Source: Nocardioides luteus
Lineage (GTDB): Bacteria > Actinomycetota > Actinomycetes > Propionibacteriales > Nocardioidaceae
Direction of reading: 5' to 3'
DNA length: 64,000 nucleotides
Assembly (NCBI RefSeq): GCF_000960475.2
Contig: NZ_JZDQ02000012.1
Coordinates: forward strand, 62,001 to 126,000
Below the pieces are notes generated by a model, which saw nothing but the letters and a program-made list of their open reading frames with translations, was not told the origin of the DNA and searched no databases. This document shows, in pieces, positions 17,100-22,881 of the stretch (positions are counted from its first letter, which is position 1; each line of letters opens with the position of its first letter). A program made the position numbers and the translations under genes.

Positions 17100-17426
17100 G
17101 TGACCGACAAGACCCCCATCAAGATGCTCCACGACCGGGTGCTGGTCGAGGTGGGTTCCGACGCAGGTGAGCGCCGCTCCTCGGGCGGCATCGTCATCCC
17201 GGCGACGGCCGCCATGGGCGCGGCCCGGCGGCTCACCTGGTCGCGTGTGGTCGCGGTCGGCCCGCACGCGCGGGCCGTCGAGATCGGTGACCGGGTGCTC
17301 TTCGACGCCGATGACAAGCCCGAGGTCGAGGTCGCCGGAGAGGTCTACATCCTCATGCGCGAGCGCGACGTGCACGCCGTCGCCGCCGAGCGGATCGCGG
17401 ATGAGTCCACGGGGTTGTATCTCTGA
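17100..17426 (+). CDS. GroES-like (Cpn10) protein, stand-alone paralogue
   Basis: The 108-residue protein has the Cpn10 pattern: IKMLHDRVLVEV at the start, GGIVIPATA where the mobile loop lies, VVAVGPHARAVEIGDRVLF and EVYILMRERDVHAVAAE at the end. It differs from housekeeping GroES by an RRLTWSR insertion and a longer C-terminus, and no groEL is adjacent. It is therefore more likely a divergent paralogue than the main co-chaperonin. The GTG at 17100 is preceded by AAGACGGAA. Confidence 0.8.
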   Translation: MTDKTPIKMLHDRVLVEVGSDAGERRSSGGIVIPATAAMGAARRLTWSRVVAVGPHARAVEIGDRVLFDADDKPEVEVAGEVYILMRERDVHAVAAERIADESTGLYL

Positions 17427-17432
17427 ATTTAC

Positions 17433-17507
17433 TGCCGAGTCGGCGCATCCGACCCCTCTGGCTCGCTTCGCTTCGCCAGGCACGGGGTCAGATGCGCCGA
17501 CTCGGCA
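17433..17507. terminator. Long inverted repeat of the GCCGAGTCGGCGC family
   Basis: Outer arms of 17 bases (17433-17449 and 17491-17507, TGCCGAGTCGGCGCATC and its complement) enclose a 41-base middle whose ends (GACCCC, GGGGTC) extend the stem imperfectly. It lies between two converging genes and shares its arm sequence with hairpins near 48.6 kb and 50.7 kb. A bidirectional terminator is the likely function. Confidence 0.7.
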
Positions 17508-18098
17508 TCACGAAGGTAGCGCGTTGAACCGGTGCGCCATCACGACGATGTTGCTGTCGTAGCTCGACCCGTTCCAGTCGGTGCAGGTGATGATCACCAG
17601 CCGGCCGTCGCCGTGGTCCTGGCCGAAGATGCGCTGGGCCTGCTCGGCCAGCTCCTTGCGGCTGAGCACCTCGACGGAGTCGACCTGGTGCTGGAAGGTC
17701 CCGTCCTTGGTGACGACGTCGACCTCCTGCCCCTCCTTGATGTGGTCGAGCTTGTTGAGGCTGCCGCCGCCGGTGTGCACGGTGTGGCCGGTGACCACGG
17801 TCTGACCCTGCGCCGAGCCCGGCTTGGCGCTGCCGACCCACCAGCCGATCTCGCGCGGGTTGCGCGGCGGGTCGAGCACCTGACCGTCGAGCCGGATCGG
17901 CACGACCTTGGCCCTCGTGTGCAGCCCGGGCAGCTCGAGGCGCTTCGGGGCACCGGGCGGCACCTCCACCGCGGCGCTGCCGGCGGGCCACACCAGCCCG
18001 GCCAGCACCATCGCCACGGCGAGCACGACCAAGCCGGTCCACAGGCTGCTCGCCGCCGCGGCGAGCCGCGACGGCGAGTCAGCAGTGGTTTCAGCCAC
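17508..18098 (-). CDS. Class F-like sortase
   Basis: The 196-residue protein has one N-terminal transmembrane helix (about residues 18-37) and an extracellular sortase domain. The catalytic triad is visible as His105 in VTGHTVHTGGG, Cys172 in LVIITCTDWNG and Arg190 in NIVVMAHRF. Sortases cut C-terminal sorting signals and attach proteins to the cell wall. The GTG at 18098 overlaps the stop of the upstream surface-protein gene by eight bases, so the two are translationally coupled. That neighbour has a C-terminal hydrophobic helix with basic tail but no clear LPXTG. Class F is judged from size and the TCTDW context. Confidence 0.82.
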   Translation of the reverse strand: MAETTADSPSRLAAAASSLWTGLVVLAVAMVLAGLVWPAGSAAVEVPPGAPKRLELPGLHTRAKVVPIRLDGQVLDPPRNPREIGWWVGSAKPGSAQGQTVVTGHTVHTGGGSLNKLDHIKEGQEVDVVTKDGTFQHQVDSVEVLSRKELAEQAQRIFGQDHGDGRLVIITCTDWNGSSYDSNIVVMAHRFNALPS

Positions 18099-19338
18099 GC
18101 CGCAGCATGCGGACGTACGTCGCCGCACCGGCGCCCGCGGCCGCGAGGAGCAGCAGGGTGACGAGGGCGATACGTCCGGCGCTGCCGTCGTCGTAGCTCT
18201 CCATGCCGGCGGTCACCACGGTCGGGACCGAGGCCGGAGGGTTGTTCTTCGGCGGGTTGTTGACGACCGTCTTGGTGATCGGGCTGTTCGGGCCGCAGTG
18301 GCTCGTGCCGATCGTCAGGTGCGCGAGGCTGCCGCCGACGAACCCCTCGGCTGCCGGCAGGACCTTCGCGTCCAGCGCGGTCACCGTGATCTCGCCGGGC
18401 GCGGTGTCCTGCTTGTTGAGGGTGATGTCGAGGACGTTCTCCTCCAGCGGCGCGAGCTGCGACTGGATCTGGCCGAGGGCCGTGTCGAGCACCTGCTTCT
18501 GGAGCTGGTCGAGCCCGCCGTTGGCCGGTGCCAGGGCGCCGTTCAGGGCCTTGCTGAACTGGGTGCGCAGAGCATCCAGGATCGCGTCGGTCACGCCGGT
18601 CAGGTCGGTGACGACCTTCTGGTTGACGGCGGGGTCGACCGGAAGGTCGACCAGGGTGACGTCGCCGACGGTCGGAACGGTGATGTAGGCCCGGCTGTTC
18701 GCCAGGCTGCTGTCGCCGGAGGCGGTGTCCTTGTCGGCGGTGCAGCTGCTCTGCACGGCGCCGAGGTCCAGGTGCAGACCGGGATCGCCCATGGCCGCGA
18801 GGAGATCCCCGAGCGCCTTCGACAGCGGGTCGGTGACCGCGGTCTGACTGAGCCCGGCATCCTTCAACGCGGTGATCAGCTGCTGGTCGACGCCCTGGAA
18901 CAGCCCCGACGAGACGAGCTCGACGTCGCTGAAGTCGAGGCTGGCCGCGTCGAGCGAGATGTTGTCGCCGCCGCTGAGGCAGTTGCCGGACCCGACGGCG
19001 ACCACGGTCGCGCCGTCTCCGGCGAGACCGGAGCAGGCAGCCGAGGTCGCGTTCTTCTTGGCCACCGCGTCCTGGGCCAGCGTGCCCGCCTGGATCGCTT
19101 CCTGCCCACCGAGCGCCGTGATGAGCGGCTCGTTGGTGCCGGTGGCGGACTCTGTGGAGCCGTCATTGGTGACGGCATATGTGCCTGTGTCCCTCGCCCC
19201 GGTGCCGGCGAGCTCCAGGCTCAGCGCGGTTGCGGACGCCTGCGACACCGTTGCGGCGCTTGCAGGTGCGGCTGACAAGGCAACCATGGCGGCCGCAGCC
19301 GCGACTGCGGCTCCCCGCGCGATGAGTGTTGTGCGCAC
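18091..19338 (-). CDS. Secreted, C-terminally membrane-anchored surface protein, paralogue 1
   Basis: The 415-residue protein has a Sec signal peptide (cleavage near APASAA, residue 29), a Ser/Thr/Ala/Asp-rich ectodomain and a C-terminal helix (IALVTLLLLAAAGAGAA) followed by RMLRRG. Its ectodomain shares several blocks with the protein at 20462-21772: CSGLAGDGATVVAVG, ITLNKQD, VTALDAKVL and IGTSHCG, including four matching cysteines that could form two disulfides. VPTVVTAG just before the helix loosely resembles a sorting motif. The GTG has GGGGAG upstream. Function is unknown; coupling to a sortase suggests it is that enzyme's substrate (inference). Confidence 0.75.
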   Translation of the reverse strand: MRTTLIARGAAVAAAAAMVALSAAPASAATVSQASATALSLELAGTGARDTGTYAVTNDGSTESATGTNEPLITALGGQEAIQAGTLAQDAVAKKNATSAACSGLAGDGATVVAVGSGNCLSGGDNISLDAASLDFSDVELVSSGLFQGVDQQLITALKDAGLSQTAVTDPLSKALGDLLAAMGDPGLHLDLGAVQSSCTADKDTASGDSSLANSRAYITVPTVGDVTLVDLPVDPAVNQKVVTDLTGVTDAILDALRTQFSKALNGALAPANGGLDQLQKQVLDTALGQIQSQLAPLEENVLDITLNKQDTAPGEITVTALDAKVLPAAEGFVGGSLAHLTIGTSHCGPNSPITKTVVNNPPKNNPPASVPTVVTAGMESYDDGSAGRIALVTLLLLAAAGAGAATYVRMLRRG

Positions 19339-19392
19339 GTACTTCTCCCCTCCCTTTGACCTTCGTCACACACAACGGTCGAGGAACGCCGG

Positions 19393-19412
19393 GGGTTACG
19401 GGCAGGTAACCC
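19393..19412. promoter_or_regulatory. Inverted repeat between the HNH gene and surface protein 1
   Basis: GGGTTAC-gggcag-GTAACCC has 7-bp arms. It lies in the 90-base spacer downstream of the HNH gene and upstream of the surface-protein gene, so it could be a weak terminator or an operator. No T tract follows it. Confidence 0.4.
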
Positions 19413-19428
19413 GTTCTGTGCAGCGGAA

Positions 19429-20292
19429 TCAGCTGTCGCAGACCGTGCCGTCCTTGTCGCCGTCTCGATACCACTCGTACTCGGCGTCGCGTCCCTTCCG
19501 GTAGGGCCCGTAGCCCTTCGCGGTCGCCTTGGCGCAGGTGTCGAAGCGCGGGTCCTCGCCGGAGCCGCCGGCGGGGGTGCCGCTCTGGCCGGTGCCGGCC
19601 TCGGGTGGTCCGGCCTGGGCCAGCCGTACGGTGATCTCGGGGTCGTCGCAGCCCGCGGCGGTCCTCTTCAGCGCGGCCTTCTCGGCACGGTCGACGAAGA
19701 GGCTCCAGCGGATCTTCACGGCGACCCAGTCGGCGACGTACGTGCAGTGGTAGCTCGTGGCGTCGGGCATCCAGTCGGCCGGGTCCTGGTCGCCCTTGCT
19801 GCGGTTGGTCGCGGCGGTGACGGCGATGAGGGTGCGCGGGTCGCCGAGGTCGTTGGCGTACGCCTCCCGCTCCTCGGCGTTCCATGCGTCGGCGCCGGAC
19901 TCCCAGACCTCCTTGAGCGGGACCATGTGGTCGATGTCGAGTCCGCCGGGGCGCTTGAGGGTGACGCCGTCGTACGCAGAGAGCCATACGCCCTTGGTGG
20001 CCTCGCACCTGCCGCGTGCCTTCTTCCTCGACTCCTCCAGGAGCACCTCGGTGCGGGCGTCCTGGCAGTCGCCGTCGGCGTCGACCCAGTGGTGGAACTT
20101 CTCGCGCTCGTAGCCGGAGGTGACCTCCTTGGCCACCGGCAGCCTCGCGATGGCCTCGGTCAGCGGAAGGCTGACCTCTTCGCCGCTGTCGGCGCCGTAC
20201 CCGGCTTGGACGGCGGTGTCGGGTTCGGCGATCTCGGCGCAGCCGGAGCAGAGGAGTACGACGGCGCACAGGGTCGCCAACGGGCGCAGCAT
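19429..20292 (-). CDS. Secreted HNH (GmrSD-type, DUF1524) endonuclease lipoprotein with Excalibur domain
   Basis: The 287-residue protein has a lipoprotein signal peptide (VVLLCSGC, lipidated Cys about 18). Its central HNH nuclease core contains the DIDHMVPLKEVWESGA motif and a downstream asparagine in TAATNRSKGDQDP. A Gly/Pro linker leads to a C-terminal Excalibur calcium-binding motif (DGDKDGTVCDS). Such secreted nucleases probably degrade extracellular DNA for nutrients or competition. The ATG has GGAG six bases upstream. It lies between two paralogous surface-protein genes in the same orientation, with intergenic hairpins on both sides. Confidence 0.85.
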   Translation of the reverse strand: MLRPLATLCAVVLLCSGCAEIAEPDTAVQAGYGADSGEEVSLPLTEAIARLPVAKEVTSGYEREKFHHWVDADGDCQDARTEVLLEESRKKARGRCEATKGVWLSAYDGVTLKRPGGLDIDHMVPLKEVWESGADAWNAEEREAYANDLGDPRTLIAVTAATNRSKGDQDPADWMPDATSYHCTYVADWVAVKIRWSLFVDRAEKAALKRTAAGCDDPEITVRLAQAGPPEAGTGQSGTPAGGSGEDPRFDTCAKATAKGYGPYRKGRDAEYEWYRDGDKDGTVCDS

Positions 20293-20409
20293 GGGGGACT
20301 CCAGAGAATTGGGGAAGAGCTCTGGGGAGCATCGGGGGCGGCGTAACTTTGTCGGATCCTGCGGCGGTCGGCACGCAGGCGCGCCGCCGATCGCTTACCG
20401 CAAAAGGAA

Positions 20410-20442
20410 TCCCGGGCCAAGGCTGAGAGCCTTGGCCCGGGA
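20410..20442 (-). terminator. Rho-independent terminator of surface protein 2
   Basis: Perfect 15-bp arms (TCCCGGGCCAAGGCT and its complement) enclose a three-base loop. Read on the minus strand, the hairpin lies just after the surface-protein stop and is followed by TTCCTTTTG. This separates surface protein 2 from the HNH gene transcriptionally. Confidence 0.85.
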
Positions 20443-20461
20443 CCGGGTGCTGATCGGTGGA

Positions 20462-21772
20462 TCAGGCGTGTGCGCGACGCAGCAGGAACCACCGGGTGGC
20501 GGCGGCCGCGGCGACGAGCAGCACGAGCGCGCCGGCGGCGACCCCACCCTTGCCGGCCGGGGACGAGAGCAGGTTCAGCTCGGCGTTGGCCGGGGCGTTG
20601 TCGGGCTTGGCCGCGACGCCGGCCTCCGGGTCGGACTTGTCACCGGAGGCGACGACGTCGACGTTCGTCTTCTTGCCGGTGGTGACGGCCTTCTCCTCCG
20701 ACGCGGTGAGACCGTTGGTGCCGCAGGTGCTGGTGCCGATGGCGACCTTGGCGGCGGTCGGGGCGCCGACCTTCTTGACCGCGTCGAGGACCTTGACGTC
20801 CAGAGCGGACACCTCGAGGGCGTGAGCGGACTTGTCCTGCTTGTTCAGGGTGAGCTTGACCAGGTCGGTCTCGAGACCCTTGAGGACGGTGGCGAGCTGC
20901 TGCTTGACCAGCTCGATCAGGTTGGTCCGGATCGAGATGTCCAGGACGCCCGGCGCGATCTCGCTCTTCAGGCCCGACCGGAGCAGGGTGTCGACCCGGC
21001 CGAGGACGGCGTCGGTTACCGGGGAGAGGTCGGGGACGACCGTCGTGTTCTTCTTCGGGTTCACCGGCAGGTCGGCGACCTGGACGTCACCCTTGCCGGG
21101 GACGGTCACGGTGACGGCGGCGTTCTTGAGGCGGGTCGTGCCCTTGAACGAGCTGTCCTTCGCCATGCAGGTGCTCTCGGCGGCATCGAGGTTGATGCCG
21201 ACCGACAGCCCGCTGACCTTCTTGAGGACGTTGGCGACGACGGTCTGGACCAGGTCGTTCACCGGGCCGAGCTTGACGTGGACGTCCTTGCTCTCGTCGG
21301 TGAGCAGGTAGTCGGTGGTTGCGCCCAGCTTCTGGAGGTCGAGCTCGGCGAGGTTCACCCTGACGGCCTCGCCCGGCTTGACGCAGCTGTCGCCGTCACC
21401 GATCGCGACCAGGGTCGCACCCTCGCCGGCCAGCGCCGAGCAGGCGCCGGAGTAGACGGTGCCGTTCCGGAGCGCAGCGGCGGCGTCCTGCGCGAAGACG
21501 CCGACGGAGATCAGCTGCTGCTCGCCCTTGAGGAGTGGCAGGGCCGGCTTGTTGGTGCCGGAGTTGACGGTCTTCTTGCCGTTGTAGGTGGCGGTGTAGC
21601 GGCCGGTGTCCATCTTGACCTTGTCGGACACGTCGACGGTCAGAGCGACCGACGAGGCCTTGGCCTGCGGCTTCTTCTCCGCCGCCGTCGCCGGGGCCGC
21701 GGTCACGCAGAGACCGATCATCGCGGTCGCCGCGACAACGGCGGCTCCGCGGACCGAGAGTGGGGAGCGCAA
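20462..21772 (-). CDS. Secreted, C-terminally membrane-anchored surface protein, paralogue 2
   Basis: The 436-residue protein has a Sec signal peptide (cleavage near APATAA, residue 30), an ectodomain related to that of the protein at 18091-19338, a low-complexity spacer and a C-terminal helix (GGVAAGALVLLVAAAAA) with a basic RWFLLRRAHA tail. Shared blocks include CSALAGEGATLVAIG, LTLNKQD, VSALDVKVL and IGTSTCG, with the same four cysteines. It is more Lys-rich than its paralogue and shows no LPXTG. The TTG start has GGAGAAG six bases upstream. It has its own terminator. Function is unknown; I do not recognise a named family with certainty. Confidence 0.75.
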   Translation of the reverse strand: MRSPLSVRGAAVVAATAMIGLCVTAAPATAAEKKPQAKASSVALTVDVSDKVKMDTGRYTATYNGKKTVNSGTNKPALPLLKGEQQLISVGVFAQDAAAALRNGTVYSGACSALAGEGATLVAIGDGDSCVKPGEAVRVNLAELDLQKLGATTDYLLTDESKDVHVKLGPVNDLVQTVVANVLKKVSGLSVGINLDAAESTCMAKDSSFKGTTRLKNAAVTVTVPGKGDVQVADLPVNPKKNTTVVPDLSPVTDAVLGRVDTLLRSGLKSEIAPGVLDISIRTNLIELVKQQLATVLKGLETDLVKLTLNKQDKSAHALEVSALDVKVLDAVKKVGAPTAAKVAIGTSTCGTNGLTASEEKAVTTGKKTNVDVVASGDKSDPEAGVAAKPDNAPANAELNLLSSPAGKGGVAAGALVLLVAAAAATRWFLLRRAHA

Positions 21773-22108
21773 GTGACTTCTCCAATGATGTTGATAACTG
21801 TCGATGACAGGGCACGACGAGTAGAAGTCAGCTGCTGCAGCCCCCCGGTTGCTGTGACTCGCCGTGACGAAGCGGGGAGTCTAACCACGTCGATTCGCCG
21901 TCGCCCAGCGCTCGACCGCCGCCGTAATTCGCAAAATTTCGCCGTAACTTCGCCGGTAACAGGTCGTGTTCGCGGTCGAGATCCGGACGGAAATGACGAA
22001 GGTCCCGGAAGCCGCCTCCGATATGGACCGGGCGTATGGATCTTGTGCCCCGGTTGTTCTTTTCGGTCGCGATGGCAAAAAGTCGTGCTCAATCCCCCGT
22101 GCGGGAAC
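21773..22108. promoter_or_regulatory. Gene-free region upstream of surface protein 2
   Basis: No convincing gene lies here. The stretch is less GC-rich than its surroundings. At 21921-21960 it carries three close repeats of a CGCCGTAAC-like word (GCCGTAATTCGC, TTCGCCGTAACTTC, CGCCGGTAAC). It probably holds the promoter and upstream control sites of the minus-strand surface-protein gene. A 124-codon minus-strand reading frame across it has Ser/Arg-rich composition and poor codon bias and is not reported as a gene. Confidence 0.45.
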
Positions 22109-22122
22109 TTAGGGTAACCTAA
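22109..22122. promoter_or_regulatory. Iron-box (DtxR/IdeR-type) candidate ahead of heme oxygenase
   Basis: TTAGGGTAACCTAA is nearly palindromic and matches the half-sites of the DtxR/IdeR consensus (TTAGG...CCTAA). It lies about 90 bases upstream of a heme oxygenase gene, a known target of DtxR-type repressors in corynebacteria. Confidence 0.6.
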
Positions 22123-22142
22123 ATTAGATCTTGAGAACTTTT

Positions 22143-22155
22143 TGACAGTGTGTCA
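22143..22155. promoter_or_regulatory. Palindrome TGACA-GTG-TGTCA overlapping a -35-like TTGACA
   Basis: Five-base arms flank GTG, and the left arm is part of TTGACA (22142-22147). The site sits between the iron box and the heme oxygenase start, so it could be the operator of the TetR protein encoded at the end of this operon. Confidence 0.45.
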
Positions 22156-22209
22156 GTATCTTTGTCCGGAACGCCGATCGCCCGACGCCCCGACCTCACT
22201 GGAGCACAC

Positions 22210-22881
22210 ATGTCCGCCCAACTCGTCGACGAGACCACCGAGGCTCCGCTCTCCGCACTGATGCGCGAGGGGTCCCGCGCCGAGCACACCGCCGCCGAGA
22301 CCTCCTCGTTCATGGGGGAGCTGTTGGCGGGCCGGGTCAACGAGCAGGGGTACGCCGACTACCTGCTGCGTCTGCGCAAGGTATATCTCGCGCTCGAGTC
22401 GGTGGGCCGTGACCTGGCGGCCACCGACGCCATCGCGGCCGCCGTCCATGACGTGGCTCTGGAGCGCCTGGCCGCGATCGACGCCGACCTGGCCGTATGG
22501 GCGCCGGGCGTCGACACCGATGCCGTGGAGTCGGCGGCCGCCGATGCGTACGTCGCCCGGATCGAGGCCACCCGCGCCTGGGGTGGTCTCTACGCCGCCC
22601 ACCACTACACCCGCTACCTCGGCGACCTCTCCGGCGGCCAGGCGATCGGCCGGCTGCTCGACCGGTTCTTCGAGCTCGGCGGGGACGGGGTGGACTTCTA
22701 CGAGTTCGCCGAGATCCCCAAGCCGAAGCCCTACAAGGACGGCTACCGCGCTCGCCTCGACGCGCTGGACCTCGATCCCGCGGAGAAGATCCGCATCGTC
22801 GAGGAGGTCCGGGTCGCCTTCGGGCTCAACCAGGCACTCTTCGAGGAGCTCGGCGCTCGCCTCGACGACTATCGCCTGTGA
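22210..22881 (+). CDS. Biliverdin-producing heme oxygenase
   Basis: The 223-residue protein has the length and signatures of HmuO-type heme oxygenase: the proximal heme ligand His26 in SRAEHTAAE and the distal-helix motif YLGDLSGGQAIGRLL. It cleaves heme to biliverdin, CO and free iron in the cytosol, allowing heme to serve as an iron source. GGAG lies about five bases before the ATG at 22210. An in-frame ATG at 22150 would overlap the control sites. The iron-box upstream suggests derepression under iron limitation. Confidence 0.92.
   Translation: MSAQLVDETTEAPLSALMREGSRAEHTAAETSSFMGELLAGRVNEQGYADYLLRLRKVYLALESVGRDLAATDAIAAAVHDVALERLAAIDADLAVWAPGVDTDAVESAAADAYVARIEATRAWGGLYAAHHYTRYLGDLSGGQAIGRLLDRFFELGGDGVDFYEFAEIPKPKPYKDGYRARLDALDLDPAEKIRIVEEVRVAFGLNQALFEELGARLDDYRL

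Follow-up and report, generated by a model that had tools for sequence, protein, structure and literature searches.

The window analysed here is a stretch of 64,000 nucleotides from Nocardioides luteus (contig NZ_JZDQ02000012.1, positions 62,001 to 126,000 of the forward strand), whose source genome comprises 5.76 Mb in 86 contigs. Between positions 17508 and 21772 of the window lie four consecutive minus-strand genes. In order of transcription they encode a protein that we call PA1, a putative HNH/Excalibur lipoprotein, a paralogue of PA1 that we call PA2, and a sortase. This report concerns the sortase and its neighbor PA2. An earlier note on this DNA had claimed the four genes, together with an overlap of 8 bases between the sortase gene and PA2. 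All four open reading frames (ORFs) are open at these positions, and the overlap agrees with a GTG start for the sortase at 18098; the first GTG, at 18128, gives 38 bases. The HNH gene is set off by gaps of 169 and 90 bases. A promoter scan of the locus detected no promoter, and no terminator-like site was detected on the minus strand from 17300 to 22300. The two terminator-like sites that were found are both on the plus strand and are not above the number in shuffles (2.3).

PA2 (18091..19338, minus strand, 415 aa) is a putative secreted substrate protein with a signal peptide, an ectodomain at about residues 29–350, a Pro-rich linker, a predicted sorting signal, a membrane helix and an Arg-rich tail. 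Residues 371–378 read VPTVVTAG, with the helix and the tail following. The signal core PTVVTAG (residues 372–378) is encoded at 18205..18225 on the minus strand. The C-terminal helix (about residues 388–407 from sequence, 388–414 at low pLDDT in the structure model) and the Arg-rich tail RMLRRG are encoded at 18091..18177 on the same strand. It had been claimed that neither paralogue has a clear LPXTG. This is true, since neither LPXTG nor LAXTG was found in PA1 or PA2 and L[PA]xTG occurs in 0/40 adjacent tails of the PA family, but the claim overlooked the variant signal in PA2. In the family alignment a poorly conserved linker leads into a strict V-P-T-x-[VI]-x-[AS]-G block, followed by a spacer, the membrane helix and an Arg-rich end. 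The pattern P[TSA]x[VI]x[AS]G with helix and Arg-rich tail is present in 19 of the 20 PA relatives, and the exception (L040) reads PISVPAG. PA2 and 19/20 relatives have the general tripartite signal of sortase substrates, namely a motif, a hydrophobic helix and a basic tail.

The sortase gene occupies 17508..18128 on the minus strand and encodes 206 aa (196 aa from the GTG at 18098) with an N-terminal membrane segment. Its product belongs to the sortase domain family PF04203 (69.6 bits, gathering cut-off 26.6). The best NCBIfam subfamily is class F (NF033748) with 77.2 bits, which is under the cut-off of 166 for that model. The general sortase model is next with 35.6 bits, and the class E model gives only 21 bits. 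We refer to the enzyme as class-F-like. In the 206-aa numbering the active-site residues are His115 and Cys182, and Asn193 (17550–17552) stands at the position expected for the catalytic Arg, a position set by sequence alignment alone. The alignment had 130 rows, with the window sortase entered twice and one class E row included. His is conserved in 130/130 rows, Cys in 129/130 and Asn in 124/130. The class E row has Gly in the Asn193 column and Arg adjacent to it. The source genome has five sortase-domain matches, four of which also match the class F model. On contig C42 (2902–4001) of this genome two sortase genes are neighbors, one above and one below the class F cut-off, and no recognisable tail lies upstream of them.

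PA profile matches were found in 21 of the 196 genomes of the order (source genome counted) and in 6 of 29 genera. The PA loci, including the window, span 6 genera and 2 families. We fetched 10–13 kb around the best PA match in each of the 20 other genomes. A class-F-like sortase gene is next downstream on the same strand in all 20. One locus (L037) has two sortases after PA, and the domain of the nearer one begins 24 bases past the PA stop. In a second set of 21 loci, which overlaps the first (at least 3 genomes in common), a sortase lies beside PA in 20. It was not found in L127, where the PA frame seems broken. This locus comparison shows that the conserved unit is PA2 and the sortase only, which PA1 and the HNH gene join in one species group. 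In a Nocardioides metagenome-assembled genome (MAG) the PA–sortase pair occurs twice in tandem (L128:4446–8509), and the second PA protein ends ITAVNSG. Enzyme and substrate thus seem to have been copied together.

The same signal was found on unrelated proteins beside related sortases. Sortases were gathered by class-wide searches, and the C-terminus of the immediately upstream gene was read. Sortase domains shorter than 100 residues were dropped, which left 118 of 123 rows as the first sortase set, and an adjacent tail was counted only for a same-strand stop within −500 to +250 bases. Among sortases of other genera and families that score at least 100 bits with the window-family profile and have non-PA neighbors, 17 of 23 have an adjacent tail, and 14 of these 17 tails fit the signal pattern (one doubtful). 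They end VPTAIPAG, VPTEIPAG, LPTAVNAG, VPTSVDAG and similar. As a control we took, from 800 kb of control DNA, those six-frame ORFs that end in a membrane helix plus a basic tail; 0/80 such tails fit, though many of these ORFs are not genes. When the control was limited to likely genes (31 tails of 587 ORFs), the strict pattern fitted 0, the broad pattern 3, and R2, the pattern for canonical class F neighbors, 0.

Because some of the tails had been seen before the pattern was set, we fixed the patterns in advance and drew new genomes from across the phylum. Six loci from class genomes seen earlier, and repeats of the same domain, were excluded. This held-out set contains 46 sortases, 33 of them with an adjacent tail. 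The broad, looser pattern fits 28/33, compared with 5.1 in shuffles, 6/80 six-frame controls and 3/31 likely genes. The strict pattern fits 4/5 held-out tails beside sortases of at least 100 bits. At one further locus (L159:423–1337) the gene directly preceding a class-F-like sortase encodes a DUF1775 protein that carries PSMVKAGTGG at its C-terminus; we take this protein to be YcnI-like.

Canonical class F sortases, those above the NCBIfam cut-off, often have neighbors of another kind, which end PRGSVKTGVGG, GGAATGGG and similar. This TGxGG-type signal is already modelled as the GVDTG sorting domain, NF058571. Two neighbors of canonical class F sortases score 29.3 and 29.5 bits with that model (cut-off 29), and 9 of 25 signal tails match it weakly (best E value 3.4e-4). 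PA2 has no match to it at E 1. Labels of the two types were placed on a sortase tree of 128 rows, made up of 95 first-set and 33 held-out sortases with an adjacent tail, near-identical sortases included. A clade of 56 sortases (support 99/94) holds 44 of the 53 PTxVxAG-type labels, and the other 72 rows hold 47 of the 52 GG-type labels. The PTxVxAG label changes 14 times on the tree, compared with 40.8 times in shuffles, and 0/500 shuffles were as low. The signal type follows the sortase tree. The tree bootstrap is not fully settled and near copies inflate the clustering, and the weight of the result lies in the unrelated ectodomains of the clade that have the same signal type. The GG label is looser than R2 and was set after the held-out test. 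Since it also catches PA tails such as VPTSVPAGSGG, a small number of PA rows carry the label GG or other; the counts are unchanged. Judged from these sequences, PTxVxAG appears to be a second type of sorting signal for class-F-like sortases, with a range well beyond the window.

A profile of the signal (A6, with PA2 as row 1) was run on the source genome, where 150 of 342 candidates were scored. The three top proteins have E values of 8.6e-11 (PA2), 2.4e-8 and 4.2e-5, and the next, at 0.005, matches in the helix only. The two further proteins are unlinked to the window locus and read VPTRIDAG (contig C19, then LPNTG) and VPTNIDAG (contig C15). No sortase lies within 1.5 kb of either gene. These two proteins may be further substrates. 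The one on contig C19 (63831–63962; L298; L079:1492–2784, minus strand) is a secreted-looking protein with a 430-codon frame, and in its C-terminus, VPTRIDAGLAGNLPNTGG, the variant signal is separated from an LPxTG signal by a few residues. Across 197 genomes many A6 matches were helix-only and most full-length ones were the sequences from which the profile was built, so that this search was not used as evidence.

PA1 (20462..21772, minus strand, 436 aa) is a divergent paralogue of PA2, with 37% identity over 362 aligned positions (E 8e-57). The paralogy asserted earlier is borne out, including the NKQD, CSxLAGxGAT and IGTSxCG blocks and four cysteines common to both proteins. In PA2 numbering C102, C199 and C348 are invariant and C120 is nearly so among 22 aligned family members. 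No further PA protein was found in the source genome at E 0.1. PA1 ends in a membrane helix and a basic tail, and the sorting signal is absent in 5/5 sequences, namely the window protein and four orthologues. PA1 probably stays in the membrane. On the PA tree its stem branch is long (1.62), and within the reading that we prefer it would be an old or fast-evolved paralogue. This long stem, followed by good conservation, suggests a new role, perhaps as a membrane-held partner of PA2. Within the N. luteus group the identity to the window protein is 81–85% for PA1, 87–93% for the sortase and 71–92% for PA2 (N. turkmenicus KC13 92%, Nocardioides sp. YR527 77%, N. luteus 71% and a MAG 71%). PA2, the predicted sorted protein, is more variable there than either PA1 or the sortase.

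Neither PA1 nor PA2 has a Pfam match or a credible NCBIfam match at E 1. An AlphaFold2 model of PA2 (mean pLDDT 72.1, pTM 0.66) predicts with fair confidence a mixed beta-rich and helical domain at residues 29–350. Foldseek with this model returned no match at E 0.001. VIA-align gave a best row with Z 5.8 and a root-mean-square deviation of 12.2; many other rows were porin-like barrels with Z 3–4 and deviations mostly above 9. The locus with the seemingly broken PA frame, L127, was left out of the structure alignment. The structural search yields no usable match, and a missing match does not amount to a new fold. Our guess is that the PA ectodomain is a wall-linked structural or binding protein. 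Three full-length PA homologues from another genus of the family (L060–L062, E 1e-23 to 2e-17) end LPATG (two) or LPDAG (one), with no window-type sortase detected in the flanking 1.5 kb. It looks from these tails as though one ectodomain had been combined with another kind of anchor.

The HNH gene (19429..20292, minus strand) encodes a putative nuclease lipoprotein. Its product matches PF07510, GmrSD_C, with 44.9 bits (gathering cut-off 23) and, at the C-terminus, the Excalibur domain PF05901 with 34.3 bits (gathering cut-off 22); a lipobox-like LCSGC was read by eye. No homologue was found at E 1e-4 in any of the 10–13 kb regions fetched around PA in the 20 other genomes. Relatives occur in 49/59 genomes of the genus (source genome counted), with at least 78% identity in just four besides the source. 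The earlier note had asked whether the order of paralogue, nuclease and sortase recurs in other genomes. The full order PA1–HNH–PA2–sortase was found in 4/21 second-set loci, all from close relatives that make up the N. luteus group, and wider conservation is confined to PA and sortase. Past the end of the sortase gene a GroES-like gene (Cpn10, 61.7 bits) lies at 17100–17426 on the plus strand, convergent with it. A gene of this kind is also near the PA–sortase pair in several relatives.

Taken as a whole, the explanation we favor, and consider quite likely, is that PA2 is the dedicated substrate of the adjacent class-F-like sortase through VPTVVTAG, that PA1 is kept in the membrane, and that the HNH lipoprotein is a local neighbor of the pair. 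PA2 would be exported as far as the membrane, where the C-terminal helix and the Arg tail would halt it. The sortase would read VPTVVTAG (consensus P-T-x-[VI]-x-[AS]-G) ahead of the helix and cut between Ala377 and Gly378 through Cys182 and His115. This cleavage site is predicted because of the analogy with LPXT|G, and the core [VIA]-x-[TAS]-G is common to both signal types. The PA2 ectodomain would then be transferred covalently to a cell-envelope acceptor, most likely a peptidoglycan precursor. Lipid II is the usual sortase acceptor. The earlier note had both paralogues presented by this sortase. For PA2 the kept adjacency and a variant signal common to unrelated neighbors speak for this, whereas PA1 lacks the signal. 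Of the two routes that it offered, a variant signal or membrane retention, the former seems to fit PA2 and the latter PA1.

Alternatively, the motif could be a conserved part of the stalk, close to the membrane, in membrane-anchored proteins, and the sortase would serve other substrates. PA1, with its membrane helix and no signal, makes membrane retention seem workable in the PA family, and the signal pattern overlaps Pro-rich linkers. We regard this as improbable, since a stalk element would have to account for a motif that stands on unrelated ectodomains directly upstream of sortases, was met in none of the 80 control membrane tails and tracks the sortase tree, and whose sister motif GVDTG is called a sorting domain by NCBIfam. 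Slightly less probable again is a reading in which PA1, too, is a substrate, with a degenerate signal (SDPEAG, or the helix-proximal SSPAG) that this sortase or another of the five would process. PA1 does look tripartite, having a linker, a helix and a basic tail, and in the alignment SDPEAG falls in the columns of the motif. The Gly, however, is not conserved in the four PA1 orthologues, which read SDPDTS or SDPDAA for the former and SSPAA for the helix-proximal SSPAG, and PA1 was absent from the signal-profile list of its own genome at E 10 (150/342 candidates scored).

All four genes might also form one surface programme, in which PA1 and PA2 would make up the two layers of an envelope structure where the HNH lipoprotein would digest DNA. 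We find this unlikely, though less so than the two alternatives above. It draws on the gene order kept in 4 close relatives with HNH identities of 80–86%, on the good conservation of PA1 within the clade relative to PA2, and on the minus strand free of detected terminator-like sites. Its difficulty is that this order is confined to one species group. PA occurs without HNH in 17/21 second-set loci and in all 20 of the PA loci fetched first, and the sortase is kept in 16/17 and 20/20 of these. The HNH family is also common in the genus away from the PA locus, and the gaps on either side set the HNH gene off from the others. A single four-gene programme was rejected as the default reading, as PA and sortase occur without HNH outside the N. 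luteus group. The proposal that the nuclease belongs to the same surface programme keeps the order in 4/21 loci in its favor, but these are close relatives and HNH is common elsewhere. Because it is only in the N. luteus group that HNH and PA1 accompany the pair, a single shared programme, and with it a functional tie of the HNH lipoprotein to the pair, is unproven.

Several observations weigh against PA2 as the dedicated substrate of this sortase. Asn stands in the expected place of the catalytic Arg in the window sortase and in 124/130 aligned rows, and PMC13257024 states that His-Cys-Arg is kept in every sortase class. In the source genome the other related sortase (contig C53) has a neighbor whose sole match, PPSYVFAG, extends into the membrane helix and is doubtful. 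Elsewhere a VPSRIDAG protein (genome G007) lacks a sortase in the surrounding 1.5 kb, and genome G004 contains a weak second PA match (L028, E 7e-11) that is without the signal and likewise has no sortase within that distance. An adjacent tail is missing for 23/118 sortases of the first sortase set and for 13/46 held-out ones, some of the latter near contig ends. Among held-out tails beside sortases below 100 bits, the strict pattern fits 4/28 and the canonical pattern R2 6/28, the R2 count being below our prior prediction. In Actinoplanes missouriensis a quadruple mutant lacking four class F sortases showed no change in phenotype (PMC13251363). Finally, adjacency and a motif, as features of sequence, would not by themselves demonstrate cleavage.

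A wider picture is possible, and we put it forward tentatively, as less probable than not. Class F and F-like sortases would be a large family, mostly of one-enzyme-one-substrate pairs. Their specificity would have diverged along the enzyme tree to give two or more codes, among them PTxVx(A/S)G and (G)(V/A)xTGxGG, and they would function with Asn where the catalytic Arg is expected. In the luteus group of Nocardioides a paired envelope structure would then have been built from two copies of one ectodomain, PA2 sorted and PA1 kept in the membrane.

PMC13251363 calls the physiological function of class F sortases unknown. As the pairing of enzyme and tag recurs in distant bacteria on unrelated proteins, substrates of this poorly understood class become predictable and testable. 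A signal readable from sequence gives a list of candidate class F enzyme–substrate pairs. PTxVxAG would broaden sortase-substrate searches past LPXTG and LAXTG, and could provide new motif specificities for protein ligation. In the literature on class F sortases, sorting signals and six forms of the motif we found no description of PTxVxAG, in a search that mostly did not reach subscription journals.

Compared with known systems, the PA family appears by profile to be a distant relative of choice-of-anchor G (NF033766). The PA-family profile matches that model over 97 columns with probability 98.5 and E 2.6e-15. Single sequences match it weakly in 3/22 PA members (best E 2.4e-4), one PA member scores 15.4 bits (cut-off 45), and PA1 and PA2 have no match at E 1. 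Unlike PA2, the six choice-of-anchor G proteins with a visible C-terminus end LP[DES]TG. Class E sortases, which use LAXTG according to PMC13257024, share with the window sortase an actinobacterial origin and a departure from LPXTG; the difference lies in the class E model, which gives the window sortase just 21 bits.

Among class F enzymes, that of Cutibacterium acnes is reported to use LPXTG (Di Girolamo 2019, as cited in PMC13257024). It resembles the window system in its class F assignment, transpeptidase activity and C-terminal signal, and differs in reading LPXTG where PTxVxAG stands here, a distinction drawn from its description and not from its sequence. Closer to PA2 are AMIS_11010 and AMIS_36440, the neighbors of SrtF1 and SrtF4 in A. 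missouriensis. In PMC13251363 they are secreted proteins with a helix and a basic tail, set aside because no pentapeptide was found, and the authors suggest from context that they may be substrates. Known here by that description, they share with PA2 an adjoining class F sortase and the lack of a recognised pentapeptide. A second A. missouriensis paper names the same sortases (PMC13293333). The nearest modelled system is class F with the GVDTG signal (NF033748, NF058571), which also combines a sortase having active-site His and Cys with a secreted neighbor carrying a short signal that ends in [TAS]-G, a helix and a basic tail. In contrast to canonical class F, the window sortase reaches 77.2 of the 166 bits and lies on the opposite side of the tree midpoint split from the rows that pass, and in contrast to the GVDTG type, the PA2 signal reads PTxVxAG with no GG following.

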